A stretch of DNA of 64,000 nucleotides from Pontibacter korlensis (lineage in GTDB: Bacteria > Bacteroidota > Bacteroidia > Cytophagales > Hymenobacteraceae). The DNA is taken from NCBI RefSeq assembly GCF_000973725.1, contig NZ_CP009621.1, positions 2,570,001 to 2,634,000 of the forward strand, in the 5' to 3' direction. This document shows, piece after piece, positions 23,532-49,952 of this stretch. Within the stretch, counting starts at the first letter, position 1. The number at the start of each line of letters is the position of its first letter. The notes under the pieces are model-generated. The model had not been told where the DNA came from. It made no database searches and saw only the letters and a program-made list of their open reading frames with translations. The translations under genes were made by a program, and so were the position numbers.

Positions 23532-24650
23532 CTACTCCTGCGTTACTGTTTTAGGTGTGGCAGGTGCTGCAAAAACTTCGTTCTGAATACCAAGAGAAAA
23601 GCCATGGATAGCATCGAAAATGGCTCTTACAAAATCCTCGTCCAAACCGATATCGCTCGCTGCTATAAGCCTGTTTTCCAGGAGTTGCTTCCAACGGCCA
23701 GCCTGGTAAATGTCAAGTGAATTGGCACGCTTGTACTCACCAATACGCTTCGATACATCAGCACGCAGGAACAGCACGTTAAGCAGTTCACTATCTAAAC
23801 GATCGATCAGGGCACGCAGGTCCTGCAACTGTTCTGGTTGTGCTACACGCTCCGACTCCAGGTCCAGTACGGTCAGCAACTTATCCAGTCCGGCTGGCGT
23901 TACCTGCTGCGAAGCATCGCTTAATGCTACATCCGGGTTGATATGTGTTTCAATCATCAATCCATCCACGCCTAGGTGCAGCGCCTGCTGGCTTACTGTC
24001 TCCAGTAAATCGCGACGGCCGGCAATATGGCTAGGGTCACAAAGTAGCGGAATGCCAGGGGCGAGATTACGAATTTCTTGTATAGTTTGCCACTTCGGGT
24101 GGTTGCGATAAGGCTTATTATTAGGAGTGGAGAATCCGCGGTGGATCAGGCCCAGGTCAGTGATGCCGGCACGGTTCAGGCGCTCCAGTGCTCCCAGCCA
24201 CAACTGTATGTCTGGGTTAACAGGGTTCTTTACCATTACCGGAATGTCTACGCCTTGTAGCGCATCTGCTACTTCCTGTACCGAGAAAGGGTTTACTGTA
24301 GTGCGTGCACCAACCCAAAGTATATCTACGCCATGCTTCAGGGCCTCTTCTACGTGTTGTGTATTTGCTACCTCAACGGCAGTTAGCAGGCCTGTTTCCT
24401 GTTTTACAGTTTTTAGCCACTCCAGGCCAATAGTACCTACACCTTCAAACATGCCCGGGCGAGTGCGGGGCTTCCATATTCCTGCACGGAAAATGGATAC
24501 ACGATGGTCTTTTTTCAACTCCAATGCTGTTTGCAGCATCTGTTCTTCGGATTCAGCACTGCAGGGACCGGCAATTACTGTTGGTAACGGACCACCGTTC
24601 AAGATTTTAGTAGTGGCAACTGTTTTTAGGTTAGATGTTGTGGTACTCAT
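23532..24650 (-). CDS. Bifunctional DAHP synthase / chorismate mutase (type II), active-type copy
   Basis: The 372-residue enzyme joins two steps of aromatic synthesis. Residues about 20-265 are a DAHP synthase: GPCSAES with metal ligand Cys30, KPRTRP at 60-65, Lys141 (VKNPVN), CDPSHIAGRR with His208, IETH with Glu234, and ALSDA with Asp245. Residues about 275-360 are an AroQ-type chorismate mutase with the expected Arg279 (LR), Arg296 (LRAD), Lys307 (YKR), Arg319 (GRW) and a late Gln. It is the last gene of the pheA-aminotransferase-DAHPS operon, starting 2 bases after the aminotransferase stop. The locus order matches other Bacteroidota, except that tyrA is missing. Confidence 0.94.
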   Translation of the reverse strand: MSTTTSNLKTVATTKILNGGPLPTVIAGPCSAESEEQMLQTALELKKDHRVSIFRAGIWKPRTRPGMFEGVGTIGLEWLKTVKQETGLLTAVEVANTQHVEEALKHGVDILWVGARTTVNPFSVQEVADALQGVDIPVMVKNPVNPDIQLWLGALERLNRAGITDLGLIHRGFSTPNNKPYRNHPKWQTIQEIRNLAPGIPLLCDPSHIAGRRDLLETVSQQALHLGVDGLMIETHINPDVALSDASQQVTPAGLDKLLTVLDLESERVAQPEQLQDLRALIDRLDSELLNVLFLRADVSKRIGEYKRANSLDIYQAGRWKQLLENRLIAASDIGLDEDFVRAIFDAIHGFSLGIQNEVFAAPATPKTVTQE

Positions 24651-24652
24651 GG

Positions 24653-25834
24653 TTATACTTTGGTTAATGTTTCCTTAGATAATTTGATTCTGTTGATGGC
24701 TTCCTGCAGCTGTTCTGCGGGGGCACAAAGAGACACGCGTAGATAGCGCTCGCCCTGGCTGCCGAATATTTTTCCGGGTGTCAGGAAAATTCCCTGCTCA
24801 TAGAGCAGCTCATCGAGATAAGCTTCTACATTAGATACTTCCTGAGGTACTTTGGCCCATACAAACATCCCAATCTGGTTTAACTGAAATGTGCAGCCAA
24901 GCTCCTCCAGAAGTAAATGTGCTAACTGCTGCCGCTCAGCATACACAGCATTGCGGGCAGAATGCCAGCTGTTACTGTTTTGAAGTGCGGCAATGGTGGC
25001 CTCCTGTATTGGTAGCAACTGCCCGGAGTCCAGGTTACTCTTCACGGCAAGTATGGCGGCAAGGTACTCCCGCTGTCCCAACACCATACCCACGCGCCAG
25101 CCAGCCATATTATGCGACTTGCTTAGCGAGTTTAGCTCTAAGCAATTCTCCTTGGCTCTGGCTATACTTAACAGGCTCAAAGGAGCTTGCTGGTGTAGCA
25201 CCAGGCTGTAAGGGTTATCATTAATAAGAAGCAGGCCGTGTTGCTGCGTAAAGGCTATAAGCCACTCAAACATTTCTGCTGTGGCAGCAGTTCCTGTTGG
25301 CATGTGCGGATAGTTGATCCACATCAGTTTAACACCGCCTTGAGCCACTAGCTTTTCCAATTCCTCACGCTGTGGTAACCAGCCATTAGCCTCATCCAGT
25401 GTATAAGTTACTGCCTCGGCACCTGCTAGTTTTGCTGCAGCAGCATAGGCCGGGTAGCCAGGGTTTGGAATCAATATTTTATCTCCCGGATTAAGAAAGG
25501 CCATAGAAATATGGAAGATACCCTCCTTTGATCCAGCCAGAGGCAGTACTTCCTGCTCCTTCAGTTCTACCTTGTAGAGTTGCTGATACCACTGTTGCAT
25601 AGCCTGTCGTAGCTTGGCGGTACCATTATAAGGTTGGTATCCGTGAGTAGTAGCCTGCTGCGCCGACTGCGTTAGTGCTTCTACTGTAGCCGGGGAGGGC
25701 GCCATGTCGGGGCTGCCAATGCCAAGGTTAATGATGCTTTTTCCCTGAGCCTGCAGTGCACGCACCTCTGCCAATTTTCGGGAGAAGTAGTACTCCTGAA
25801 CATGCTGTAACCGGTCTGCTTTAGGTATGATCAT
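24653..25834 (-). CDS. Class I/II aminotransferase, probably aromatic or prephenate aminotransferase
   Basis: The 393-residue protein is a fold-type I PLP enzyme. The Schiff-base lysine lies in SLSKSHNMAGWRVG (about 233-246). Other family marks are IPNPGYPAYAAA (about 131-142), NYPHMPTG (about 174-181) and the phosphate-binding arginine after it. It resembles LL-diaminopimelate aminotransferase-like and AspC-like proteins. Placed between prephenate dehydratase (6 bases upstream) and DAHP synthase/chorismate mutase (2 bases downstream), it very likely transaminates phenylpyruvate to Phe. The exact substrate is inference from the operon. Confidence 0.88.
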   Translation of the reverse strand: MIIPKADRLQHVQEYYFSRKLAEVRALQAQGKSIINLGIGSPDMAPSPATVEALTQSAQQATTHGYQPYNGTAKLRQAMQQWYQQLYKVELKEQEVLPLAGSKEGIFHISMAFLNPGDKILIPNPGYPAYAAAAKLAGAEAVTYTLDEANGWLPQREELEKLVAQGGVKLMWINYPHMPTGTAATAEMFEWLIAFTQQHGLLLINDNPYSLVLHQQAPLSLLSIARAKENCLELNSLSKSHNMAGWRVGMVLGQREYLAAILAVKSNLDSGQLLPIQEATIAALQNSNSWHSARNAVYAERQQLAHLLLEELGCTFQLNQIGMFVWAKVPQEVSNVEAYLDELLYEQGIFLTPGKIFGSQGERYLRVSLCAPAEQLQEAINRIKLSKETLTKV

Positions 25835-25840
25835 AACTCC

Positions 25841-26707
25841 TTAATGTGTAGCTAAAGCCTCTTTTTCTGGTGTTGCTACACTTGGTCGTGCAGCCTTCTC
25901 CAGCATTCCCAATACCTGCATGTCTTCCACTAACGGCCTTACCTGTGCAATTGCCTCCTGCAGTTGCTCCACATGCGCAGCCTCCAATTCGGCAACCAAA
26001 TGCGCGCGGGTATCAGTTGTTGGCAGTGTTTGCAGGAGCGTAAGCTCTACCTGGTGCTTTTGCAACAGGCTAAGGAGTAAGGTTAGGGTAGAGGTATGTA
26101 GTGGTTTCCTGAAGGAGAGAATAGCTTTATCCGCTCCGGCTGCTACTTCAGGATTCTGACGCTGTAAAAGCAGGAAGCGGGTGTAATTATCAACAGAATC
26201 AGCAATGTTACTGGCCAATACCTCCAGTCCGTACAGTGTAGCAGCTGCCTTACCTGCAATGGCTGCGGTGTTCTTTAGCTGCTGCTCCAGTATGATTCTA
26301 GCGCTGTCAGCAGTATCGTGCGTCTCTACAGGCTGCAGTTGTGGGTGCTGCTGTAAGAAGGCACCACATTGTGCCAACGCCACTGGGTGCGACAGTACAG
26401 TTTGGATTTCTGTTAAGTTCTGCCCCGGCAACGCCAGCAGGTTCTGGTCTATTGGCAGCCAATGCTCTGCTATAACATGCAGCCCGTGCTCCTGTAGCAA
26501 TGTATAATTTGGCAACAGGCTCCCGGCCAACGTATTCTCAATAGCCATTACTGCGGCATCTACTTCACCTTGCTCCAAGGCTGTGCAGAGGCTACGGAAG
26601 GTAGTGTGAGGCACCGACTCAACGGCATTACCCTGGCACAGCTGCCTGGCGGCCGCATCATGGAATGAGGCTGGGCCACCCTGGATTGCGATTCTGGTTC
26701 TGTTCAT
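25841..26707 (-). CDS. pheA: Prephenate dehydratase with divergent ACT domain
   Basis: The 288-residue protein converts prephenate to phenylpyruvate. The catalytic domain (about 1-190) shows IAIQGGPASFHDAAA, the pocket VMAIENTLAGSLLPNY (about 54-69) and the NYTRF motif (about 174-178) with its key Thr. The following domain (about 195-275) has the ACT length. However, the usual Phe-binding GALxxL and ESRP motifs are not there: the matching segments read TSTLTLLL and LLQTLPT. Classic Phe feedback may therefore be weak or absent. It is the first gene of a three-gene operon, behind an attenuator with an aromatic-rich leader peptide. Confidence 0.93.
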   Translation of the reverse strand: MNRTRIAIQGGPASFHDAAARQLCQGNAVESVPHTTFRSLCTALEQGEVDAAVMAIENTLAGSLLPNYTLLQEHGLHVIAEHWLPIDQNLLALPGQNLTEIQTVLSHPVALAQCGAFLQQHPQLQPVETHDTADSARIILEQQLKNTAAIAGKAAATLYGLEVLASNIADSVDNYTRFLLLQRQNPEVAAGADKAILSFRKPLHTSTLTLLLSLLQKHQVELTLLQTLPTTDTRAHLVAELEAAHVEQLQEAIAQVRPLVEDMQVLGMLEKAARPSVATPEKEALATH

Positions 26708-26732
26708 GGTGAGGTACAGGCTTAAAAAGAAA

Positions 26733-26755
26733 AAGCCCCGCTTTTGGCGGGGCTT
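26733..26755 (-). terminator. Attenuator terminator in front of pheA
   Basis: On the - strand a 9-bp stem AAGCCCCGC/GCGGGGCTT (arms 26747-26755 and 26733-26741, 5-base loop) is followed by TTTTTCTTTTT. It lies between the aromatic-rich leader ORF and the pheA start, 25 bases before the ATG. The first arm can pair instead with CGGGGCT inside the leader ORF (near 26803-26809), giving an antiterminator. This is the classical attenuation layout. Confidence 0.85.
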
Positions 26756-26792: not shown

Positions 26793-26858
26793 TTACCTGT
26801 GGAGCCCCGTCGGAGTACCAAAAAAGTAATAGCTAAAGTAAAACGTGTTGTGTAACAT
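26793..26858 (-). CDS. Phe/Tyr-rich leader peptide of the pheA operon
   Basis: A 21-codon ORF begins with ATG at 26858 and ends with TAA at 26793-26795. Residues 6-13 read FYFSYYFF: four Phe and three Tyr in eight codons. The next codons (ACG GGG CTC at 17-19) form the antiterminator strand. A ribosome stalled in the aromatic block for lack of charged tRNA-Phe or tRNA-Tyr would leave that strand free to open the terminator at 26733-26755. A ribosome reaching the stop would cover it and let transcription end. The design parallels the enterobacterial pheA leader; it was read directly from the sequence and has not been tested. Confidence 0.85.
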   Translation of the reverse strand: MLHNTFYFSYYFFGTPTGLHR

Positions 26859-48613: not shown

Positions 48614-49360
48614 TTATTTGTCAGCCTCTACTGGCTCCTCCCGCAGTTTCTGAATGGCTTCTTCTATCTGCTGCAGGCTCTCTAGCAGCTGCTCAAAACT
48701 TTCTATGCAGAAGTACTGGCTCTGGAAGGTCTCCTTGATATAAGCCGTGTCCAGAATATGTTCCACATCAAATCCGTACTTCACGCTTTCATCTGACACT
48801 GATAAGTTACTCTCGCCTACCGAAGAGAGTATACCTGCACCGTAGATACGAGCCTCTGCGCCTGGCTTGCGGAACAGGCCAAATTCAATGGTGTACCAGT
48901 AAATGCGCGTCAGGCGGTCAATAATGTCCGGGCGATCTACGTGTTGTAGTGCCATGGCCGACAGTTTAGCCAAAAACTCGCAGTAGACAGGGATAGTGAG
49001 CAGCGGCACGTGCCCGAAAACATCGTGGAACATATCCGGTTCTTCCAGGTAATCGAGCTGGTCCATTTTTCTGATCCATACAGTGGCCGGAAACTTCTTC
49101 TCAGCTATAAGGCCAAAGAACAGCGCATCGTCTACAATGCCGGGAGCAGCCACTACCTCAAAGCCAGTTAAGGGCTTCAGACGCTTGTTAACCTCTTCAA
49201 AATTAGGAATGCGGTCCGGCTGGAAATTCACTAGCTTCAGCCCCTCAAAGAACTCTGGTATAGCTTTATTGGGTAGGTTCTCAATCTGGCGCTGGAACAG
49301 GATAGCCCAAACGTTATGGTTTTCTTCGGTGTAGGTGCTGTAGTTTTGTGTCAGGTTCAT
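48614..49360 (-). CDS. phhA: Phenylalanine 4-hydroxylase (aromatic amino acid hydroxylase)
   Basis: The 248-residue non-haem iron enzyme has the ligand motif FHDVFGHVPLL (two His, about 113-123), the Glu ligand in YTIEFGLFRKPGAEARIYGAG (about 152-172) and GFEVVAAPGIVDDALFFGLIAEKKFPATVWIR (about 69-100), as in bacterial monomeric PhhA. It uses a pterin and oxygen to turn Phe into Tyr. It is single-gene, behind a Tyr-rich leader and a terminator. That control fits a job in making Tyr rather than only breaking down Phe. No pterin-recycling gene is next to it. Confidence 0.94.
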   Translation of the reverse strand: MNLTQNYSTYTEENHNVWAILFQRQIENLPNKAIPEFFEGLKLVNFQPDRIPNFEEVNKRLKPLTGFEVVAAPGIVDDALFFGLIAEKKFPATVWIRKMDQLDYLEEPDMFHDVFGHVPLLTIPVYCEFLAKLSAMALQHVDRPDIIDRLTRIYWYTIEFGLFRKPGAEARIYGAGILSSVGESNLSVSDESVKYGFDVEHILDTAYIKETFQSQYFCIESFEQLLESLQQIEEAIQKLREEPVEADK

Positions 49361-49401
49361 GTTATTGTAATTTGATATTTCTGATTTGGTATAAAATAAA
49401 A

Positions 49402-49428
49402 AAAGCAGGGGCTCAGGGCCGCTGCTTT
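49402..49428 (-). terminator. Attenuator-like terminator in front of phhA
   Basis: On the - strand AAAGCAG (49422-49428) pairs with CTGCTTT (49402-49408), extended by GG/CC after one mismatch, around a 7-base loop, and is followed by TTTTATTTTAT. It lies 41 bases before the phhA ATG and 71 bases after the Tyr-rich leader stop. A transcript ending here would not reach phhA, so it must be bypassed for expression. Confidence 0.75.
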
Positions 49429-49499
49429 GGCAGGTTCACCGTTGGAGGGCCTTTGGGCTACGCTCCTGTGTCTAAAATTAGTAGTTGTTGGTGATTGCC

Positions 49500-49589
49500 T
49501 TAGCTGCGGGTGCGGTAATAGCGATAATAATAGCTGTAATAGCTATACACGCTCAGGCAATAAGAATAAGCAGAATACAGCAGCGCCAT
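49500..49589 (-). CDS. Tyr-rich leader peptide of phhA
   Basis: A 29-codon ORF runs from ATG 49589 to TAA 49500-49502. Eleven of its 29 residues are Tyr (positions 5, 8, 10, 15, 17, 18, 20, 21, 22, 24, 25; nine TAT and two TAC codons), with SYYSYYYRYY at residues 16-25. There is no Phe or Trp. It is placed as a leader peptide before a terminator and phhA. Ribosome stalling when Tyr-tRNA is low would be expected to change folding downstream and allow transcription of phhA. I could not identify the antiterminator pairing with certainty. Confidence 0.82.
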   Translation of the reverse strand: MALLYSAYSYCLSVYSYYSYYYRYYRTRS

Positions 49590-49952
49590 GCCTGTGGAAG
49601 TAGGCAGAGAAAGTGTAGTCGCTATGGCTGCTGGTTTATGCATTCAAGGTTTTCGTGTTGCAATAATGCAATGCTTCTGGGTTAAACGCAAGAAATTTGA
49701 TAAAGTTTTTCCGGTTTAGGATTCCCAAGTTCAAATTTTGCCTCTCTATAACAAGCGCAATGCCCATGTTTCTGAACATGACAAATACCTTCCCTAAATA
49801 TATTTTTAATTTGTTGTTTGCTCTGTAGCACAATGAGTTATGTGGTAGTGTTGGTAATTTAAGTTGCCTAAATCCTGATGCCATATTGTTGCTGCAAATC
49901 GTATAAATTATTATACCTAAAGTGGTTAGGTTTTTTATTAAGTGAAAAAGGT
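49590..49952. other. AT-rich intergenic region between phhA leader and AlkP-family gene
   Basis: About 360 bases carry the upstream regions of the phhA leader (- strand) and of the lipoprotein gene at 49953 (+ strand). The stretch 49690-49940 is AT-rich. I found no clear match to the promoter consensus and no gene. Confidence 0.45.

Follow-up and report, generated by a model that had tools for sequence, protein, structure and literature searches.

A predicted tyrosine-codon leader attenuator upstream of the phenylalanine hydroxylase gene phhA in Pontibacter korlensis and its relatives

Ribosome-mediated attenuators such as trpL, pheL and hisL of E. coli, and the Rfam families Trp_leader and Phe_leader (RF01859), combine a leader peptide rich in codons for the end product with a terminator, a mutually exclusive antiterminator and a biosynthetic gene downstream. 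The same elements were recognised upstream of phhA in Pontibacter korlensis, where, in contrast to the trpL, pheL and hisL type, the leader names Tyr alone, the target is a phenylalanine hydroxylase (PAH), and there is no Rfam match. A search of the phhA leader against Rfam, including the Phe, Trp, His, Thr and Leu leaders and the T-box, gave no match at E ≤ 5 except two chance matches on the other strand. The AroR leader before aroF of Corynebacterium glutamicum is also an aromatic leader with a Tyr codon (Phe-Tyr-Phe), and ribosome-mediated attenuation is common to both systems; AroR, however, answers to Phe, with Tyr availability having no effect (PMC11802643), whereas the phhA leader contains 11 Tyr codons and no Phe codon. 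Tyr genes elsewhere are listed under T-boxes, and the Tyr T-boxes of Firmicutes resemble the phhA leader in sensing tRNA-Tyr charging and controlling Tyr genes (PMC1262725). Unlike the phhA leader, these T-boxes bind the tRNA directly and have no translated leader, and no T-box was matched at the phhA leader.

To our knowledge, few attenuators have been tested in Bacteroidota, and a first-pass annotation of this DNA knew of no well-studied examples in the phylum. Attenuation had nevertheless been predicted there before, in 5' regions of Flavobacterium psychrophilum (PMC9723704) and in the Bacteroid-trp leader RF01692 (PMC2864571); these are of the same phylum and general kind as the phhA leader, and the available portions of those reports do not show attenuation for Tyr or phhA. 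Biosynthetic PAHs that make Tyr are described in Dyella, Legionella and Echinicola, the last a member of the Cytophagales, and fitness data on the Tyr requirement exist for relatives; the Tyr-making role is alike, and no leader attenuator is described in the available portion of that source (PMC7311316). Neither the participation of PAH in Tyr synthesis nor leader attenuation in Bacteroidota as such is therefore new, and the mechanism is classical. The new part is the Tyr class of ribosome-mediated attenuator: a Tyr-specific leader attenuator was not found in the searched open-licence literature or in Rfam, in line with the first-pass annotation, which knew of none for this enzyme.

The window, meaning the whole stretch of 64,000 nucleotides of P. 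korlensis DNA that was analysed, carries phhA on the minus strand at 48614–49360 as a single gene with its neighbours on the other strand. The gene call made earlier was borne out, with a start at 49360 and a product of 248 amino acids that passes NCBIfam NF008877 (phenylalanine 4-monooxygenase; 270 bits, above the cut-off) and also matches PF00351. Residues 3–228 align with a solved bacterial PAH and the HDxxGH motif is retained; the protein is a member of the PAH family with the iron-ligand motif. Upstream of the leader, a promoter is predicted at 49660–49691 (minus strand), with TTGCG at about -33 and TATTGC at about -7. Its TTGC boxes, at 49691 and 49665, keep both spacings from the leader ATG in the majority of 40 relatives, and we take them to be a promoter of the Bacteroidota type.

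The leader was examined in an alignment of the 40 closest phhA loci of the same genus. The frame originally proposed, at 49589–49500 on the minus strand, translates to MALLYSAYSYCLSVYSYYSYYYRYYRTRS, 29 codons with 11 Tyr and no Phe or Trp; at least 11 Tyr in 29 codons would arise by chance with a probability of about 7e-9, assuming that Tyr makes up 4% of codons. This composition stood but the start did not. The ATG at 49643 shares one column in 40/40 genomes and is separated from the Tyr block by gaps whose lengths are multiples of three, while the ATG at 49589 is replaced by another codon in most of them, and the true start is therefore placed at 49643. The resulting ORF (49500–49643, minus strand; MHKPAAIATTLSLPTSTGMALLYSAYSYCLSVYSYYSYYYRYYRTRS) has 47 codons, still with 11 Tyr, 0 Phe and 0 Trp. 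Its Tyr codons form a block at 49515–49577 (minus strand), and in the alignment Tyr is found at columns 36, 43 and 47 in all 40 genomes, at column 46 in 39 and at column 41 in 37. Four to five Tyr codons are thus near-invariant and the flanking codons vary, with leaders averaging 9.1 Tyr and 0.55 Phe. This conservation is more telling than the chance figure. In this respect the predicted phhA leader is what would be expected of an attenuator, a short ORF in which codons for the regulated amino acid follow in a run.

Between leader and phhA, a terminator is present in all 40 same-genus genomes. In P. korlensis it is the intrinsic terminator noted in the first pass, a stem-loop followed by a T-run at 49398–49428 on the minus strand (AAAGCAGCGGCCCTGAGCCCCTGCTTTTTTT; -13.1 kcal/mol, z -2.9). 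Folding of the 40 genomes and pair counts placed the antiterminator at the end of the leader, with a 5' arm at 49490–49509 (CCGCAGCTAAGGCAATCACC) that spans the stop codon and a 3' arm at 49419–49440 (GGTGAACCTGCCAAAGCAGCGG) that shares bases with the terminator's first arm, both on the minus strand (z -2.7). Complementarity to the terminator arm had earlier been located only within the first leader codons. That pairing (GGCGCTGCT with AGCAGCGGCC) is real, but was dropped in favour of the leader-end arm, which forms the longer pairing and is conserved.

When the segment between the last Tyr codon and the terminator loop was folded in the 40 genomes (that of locus L035 being too short), the long-range antiterminator helix, or a local equivalent, was obtained in nearly all, with a mean z of -2.5. 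The arms paired in 97.3% of cells in the 16 genomes of one sequence type and in 97.6% in 21 of the others, compared with 8–46% when the arms were slid by one to three columns. Base-pair swaps from G-C to A-U and from G-C to C-G keep the pairing, and, as the helices hardly vary, covariation within a type is limited. Arms from the same genome also outpaired swapped arms (0/10000 permutations, not corrected for kinship); a G+C-rich arm accounts for one cross-type combination that likewise pairs well. Over its whole length of 211 nt, the leader is only marginally more stable than shuffled sequences (z -1.25). The predicted structure is an antiterminator exclusive of the terminator that would be left free by a ribosome stalled at the control codons. 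A further possible hairpin, CAGCAGC/GCUGCUG, lies within the first leader codons (window positions 49575–49633, minus strand) and is visible in many genomes; it is perhaps a pause hairpin, and its pair counts were no better than those of shuffles.

Taken together, the comparative sequence data make it highly probable that transcription of a Tyr-making phenylalanine hydroxylase is controlled here by a ribosome-mediated attenuator that responds to the charging of tRNA-Tyr. Sequence comparison documents the leader ORF with its Tyr codons, the terminator, the antiterminator that excludes it, and the connection with Tyr supply described below. From these we infer ribosome stalling, masking and Tyr-dependent readthrough. 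With plentiful Tyr, the first ribosome would pass the Tyr codons and arrive at the stop codon within the 5' antiterminator arm; with this arm masked, the terminator would form and transcription would stop before phhA. Under Tyr shortage, the ribosome would stall at the Tyr codons, upstream of the 5' arm, which would then be free to pair with the first terminator arm; no terminator would form, and phhA would be transcribed and Phe converted to Tyr. The leader would thus most likely switch phhA on at Tyr shortage. Where the stop codon is located about 20 nt or more past the 5' arm, as in some relatives, masking would have to be effected by the transit of the ribosome and not by its waiting at the stop.

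Tyr-rich leaders are not confined to the close relatives. Leaders from the family's other genera and from two outlying Pontibacter are still Tyr-rich, with no clear sequence similarity (MNNAYYYYYYHQSRRFGVGCVCS, MHLFSQSYYYYYPTCQPTGFGNGRVCTTASEQTL, MTRFTSRYYAYAYYAPQGSGAAAACRNQE). Differently spelled Tyr-rich leaders with terminators precede phhA in Hymenobacter, Nafulsella, Fulvivirga and Echinicola, and Roseivirga phhA, which like that of the last three lies outside the family, also has a Tyr-rich leader. The alignment of relatives proposed as a check in the first-pass annotation accordingly came out in its favour, the ORF and Tyr codons being kept in 40/40 and also in the differently spelled leaders elsewhere. 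In leaders of the Hymenobacter type, the same job falls to a different sequence, GGAGCGGAGCGG, which follows the Tyr codons and pairs with GCTTCCGC-containing sequence in an arm of the terminator; in the genus designated g6 (L043–L050) the long-range helix was not clear in the same computation. Many phhA genes of Cyclobacteriaceae have no Tyr leader. Algoriphagus phhA loci (e.g. L097, L098, L106 and L131) have a conserved short leader, MNPTPRTYVHHSYHLLH, with His and Tyr codons, followed by a terminator and a possible antiterminator before phhA. Phenylalanine hydroxylase-like genes with 43–44% identity were observed on four viral contigs from IMG/VR (L220–L223), which may be host sequence.

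Two other aromatic leaders were found in the same genome. Upstream of tyrA (prephenate dehydrogenase), outside the window (L157:5327-5451, equivalent to about 2672326-2672450 of G000:C1), a Tyr-only leader, MNSNNLYYYYYCISLSRDLGTGCC, is followed by a terminator and a matching antiterminator; a Tyr-rich leader precedes tyrA in 5 of the 23 same-genus relatives looked at. Within the window, the pheA operon (23532–26707, minus strand), encoding prephenate dehydratase, an aminotransferase and a DAHP synthase/chorismate mutase, is preceded by a mixed Phe/Tyr leader peptide (26793–26858, minus strand; MLHNTFYFSYYFFGTPTGLHR) that is conserved in 20/20 relatives. The first arm (AGCCCCG) of its terminator (26724–26754, minus strand) pairs with CGGGGCT at 26803–26809 as an antiterminator (z -2.5), and the leader scores 38 bits against Rfam Phe_leader, below the gathering score of 55. 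Since Tyr-only leaders stand before the two Tyr-making enzymes and a Phe and Tyr leader before the shared branch, codon content tracks the logic of the pathway. Some Pontibacter (L212–L215) have two tandem Phe/Tyr-rich leaders, each with a terminator, before prephenate dehydratase. A whole-genome scan for runs of Tyr codons was uninformative relative to its control.

The distribution of TyrA relates phhA to Tyr supply. Of 49 good genomes of the genus, 23 lack TyrA (PF02153) and every one of these carries a leader-bearing phhA, and the eight Pontibacter genomes without phhA all have TyrA. Family-wide, phhA of the leader-bearing type was present in 35 of 38 TyrA-less genomes (Fisher p 4e-11, not corrected for kinship), eight genomes with only weak TyrA matches (E 1e-6 to 1e-3) being counted as TyrA-less. 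When TyrA presence is mapped on the PhhA tree, well-supported branches account for at least 8 changes. PhhA thus stands in where TyrA is missing, and is the only recognised Tyr source in the 23 TyrA-less Pontibacter genomes. Prephenate dehydratase (PF00800) is also absent from 15 of these, with chorismate synthase retained (G151, G152, G155, G156, G159, G161, G164, G174, G177, G178, G184, G189, G191, G192 and G195). Because they lack both enzymes and keep chorismate synthase, these 15 are probably Phe auxotrophs that import Phe and convert it to Tyr; alternatively, they may use an unrecognised dehydratase.

Annotations usually treat bacterial phenylalanine hydroxylase as a breakdown enzyme. 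The leader might accordingly sense Tyr while phhA serves mainly Phe breakdown, low Tyr being the signal to refill the homogentisate route, a reading that we regard as improbable even though HPD and hmgA-like genes (the latter under the family cut-off) are each found in 48 of 50 genus genomes. Opening on Tyr shortage would be the wrong sign for a breakdown enzyme, tyrA carries the same kind of Tyr leader, and second-type phenylalanine hydroxylase copies in a Hymenobacter-like genus are without a Tyr leader; the reading also has to contend with the 23 TyrA-less genomes. The presence of HPD makes a second, catabolic role of phhA possible, and both roles may coexist. The suggestion of the first-pass annotation that the hydroxylase serves Tyr synthesis, and does not only degrade Phe, is supported by the predicted Tyr-only leaders of phhA and tyrA and by the presence of phhA in 23/23 TyrA-less genomes.

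The leader might instead act as an arrest peptide, or as a sensor of a general slowdown of translation, and not as a reader of Tyr-tRNA charging. In its favour, conservation in the 40 genomes extends to the N-terminal residues PAAIAT..G..LL and to a Cys, but TAT and TAC are exchanged at the conserved Tyr positions, only Tyr-richness and not the peptide sequence is common across genera, and the pheA leader has Phe and Tyr in place of Tyr alone, all of which make this very unlikely. That the ORF arose by chance, with the hairpin merely a spacer or the terminator of another transcript, might be suggested by the lack of an obvious ribosome site before the ORF when judged by eye, which is common in Bacteroidota, but is already refuted by conservation of the ATG, Tyr codons and terminator in 40/40 genomes and of the antiterminator (which folds in nearly all 40), and, as the neighbouring genes are on the other strand, no other transcript on the phhA strand needs a terminator here.

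With the Tyr-sensing attenuator as the preferred reading, it is on balance likely that Tyr-specific leader attenuation forms a class not yet described, spread widely through the Cytophagales and joining phhA and tyrA in a Tyr regulon, that leader codons tell anabolic from catabolic PAHs by sequence alone, and that Tyr supply is animal-like (Tyr from Phe) in lineages without TyrA, often also without prephenate dehydratase. With such a leader, Tyr would join the amino acids for which sensing by ribosome-mediated attenuation is known, and a phylum with few tested attenuators would gain a clear and easily tested case. A Tyr-only leader would reveal the use that the cell makes of PAH in dozens of species at once, and its presence on phhA would explain how Tyr synthesis has persisted after the repeated loss of TyrA.
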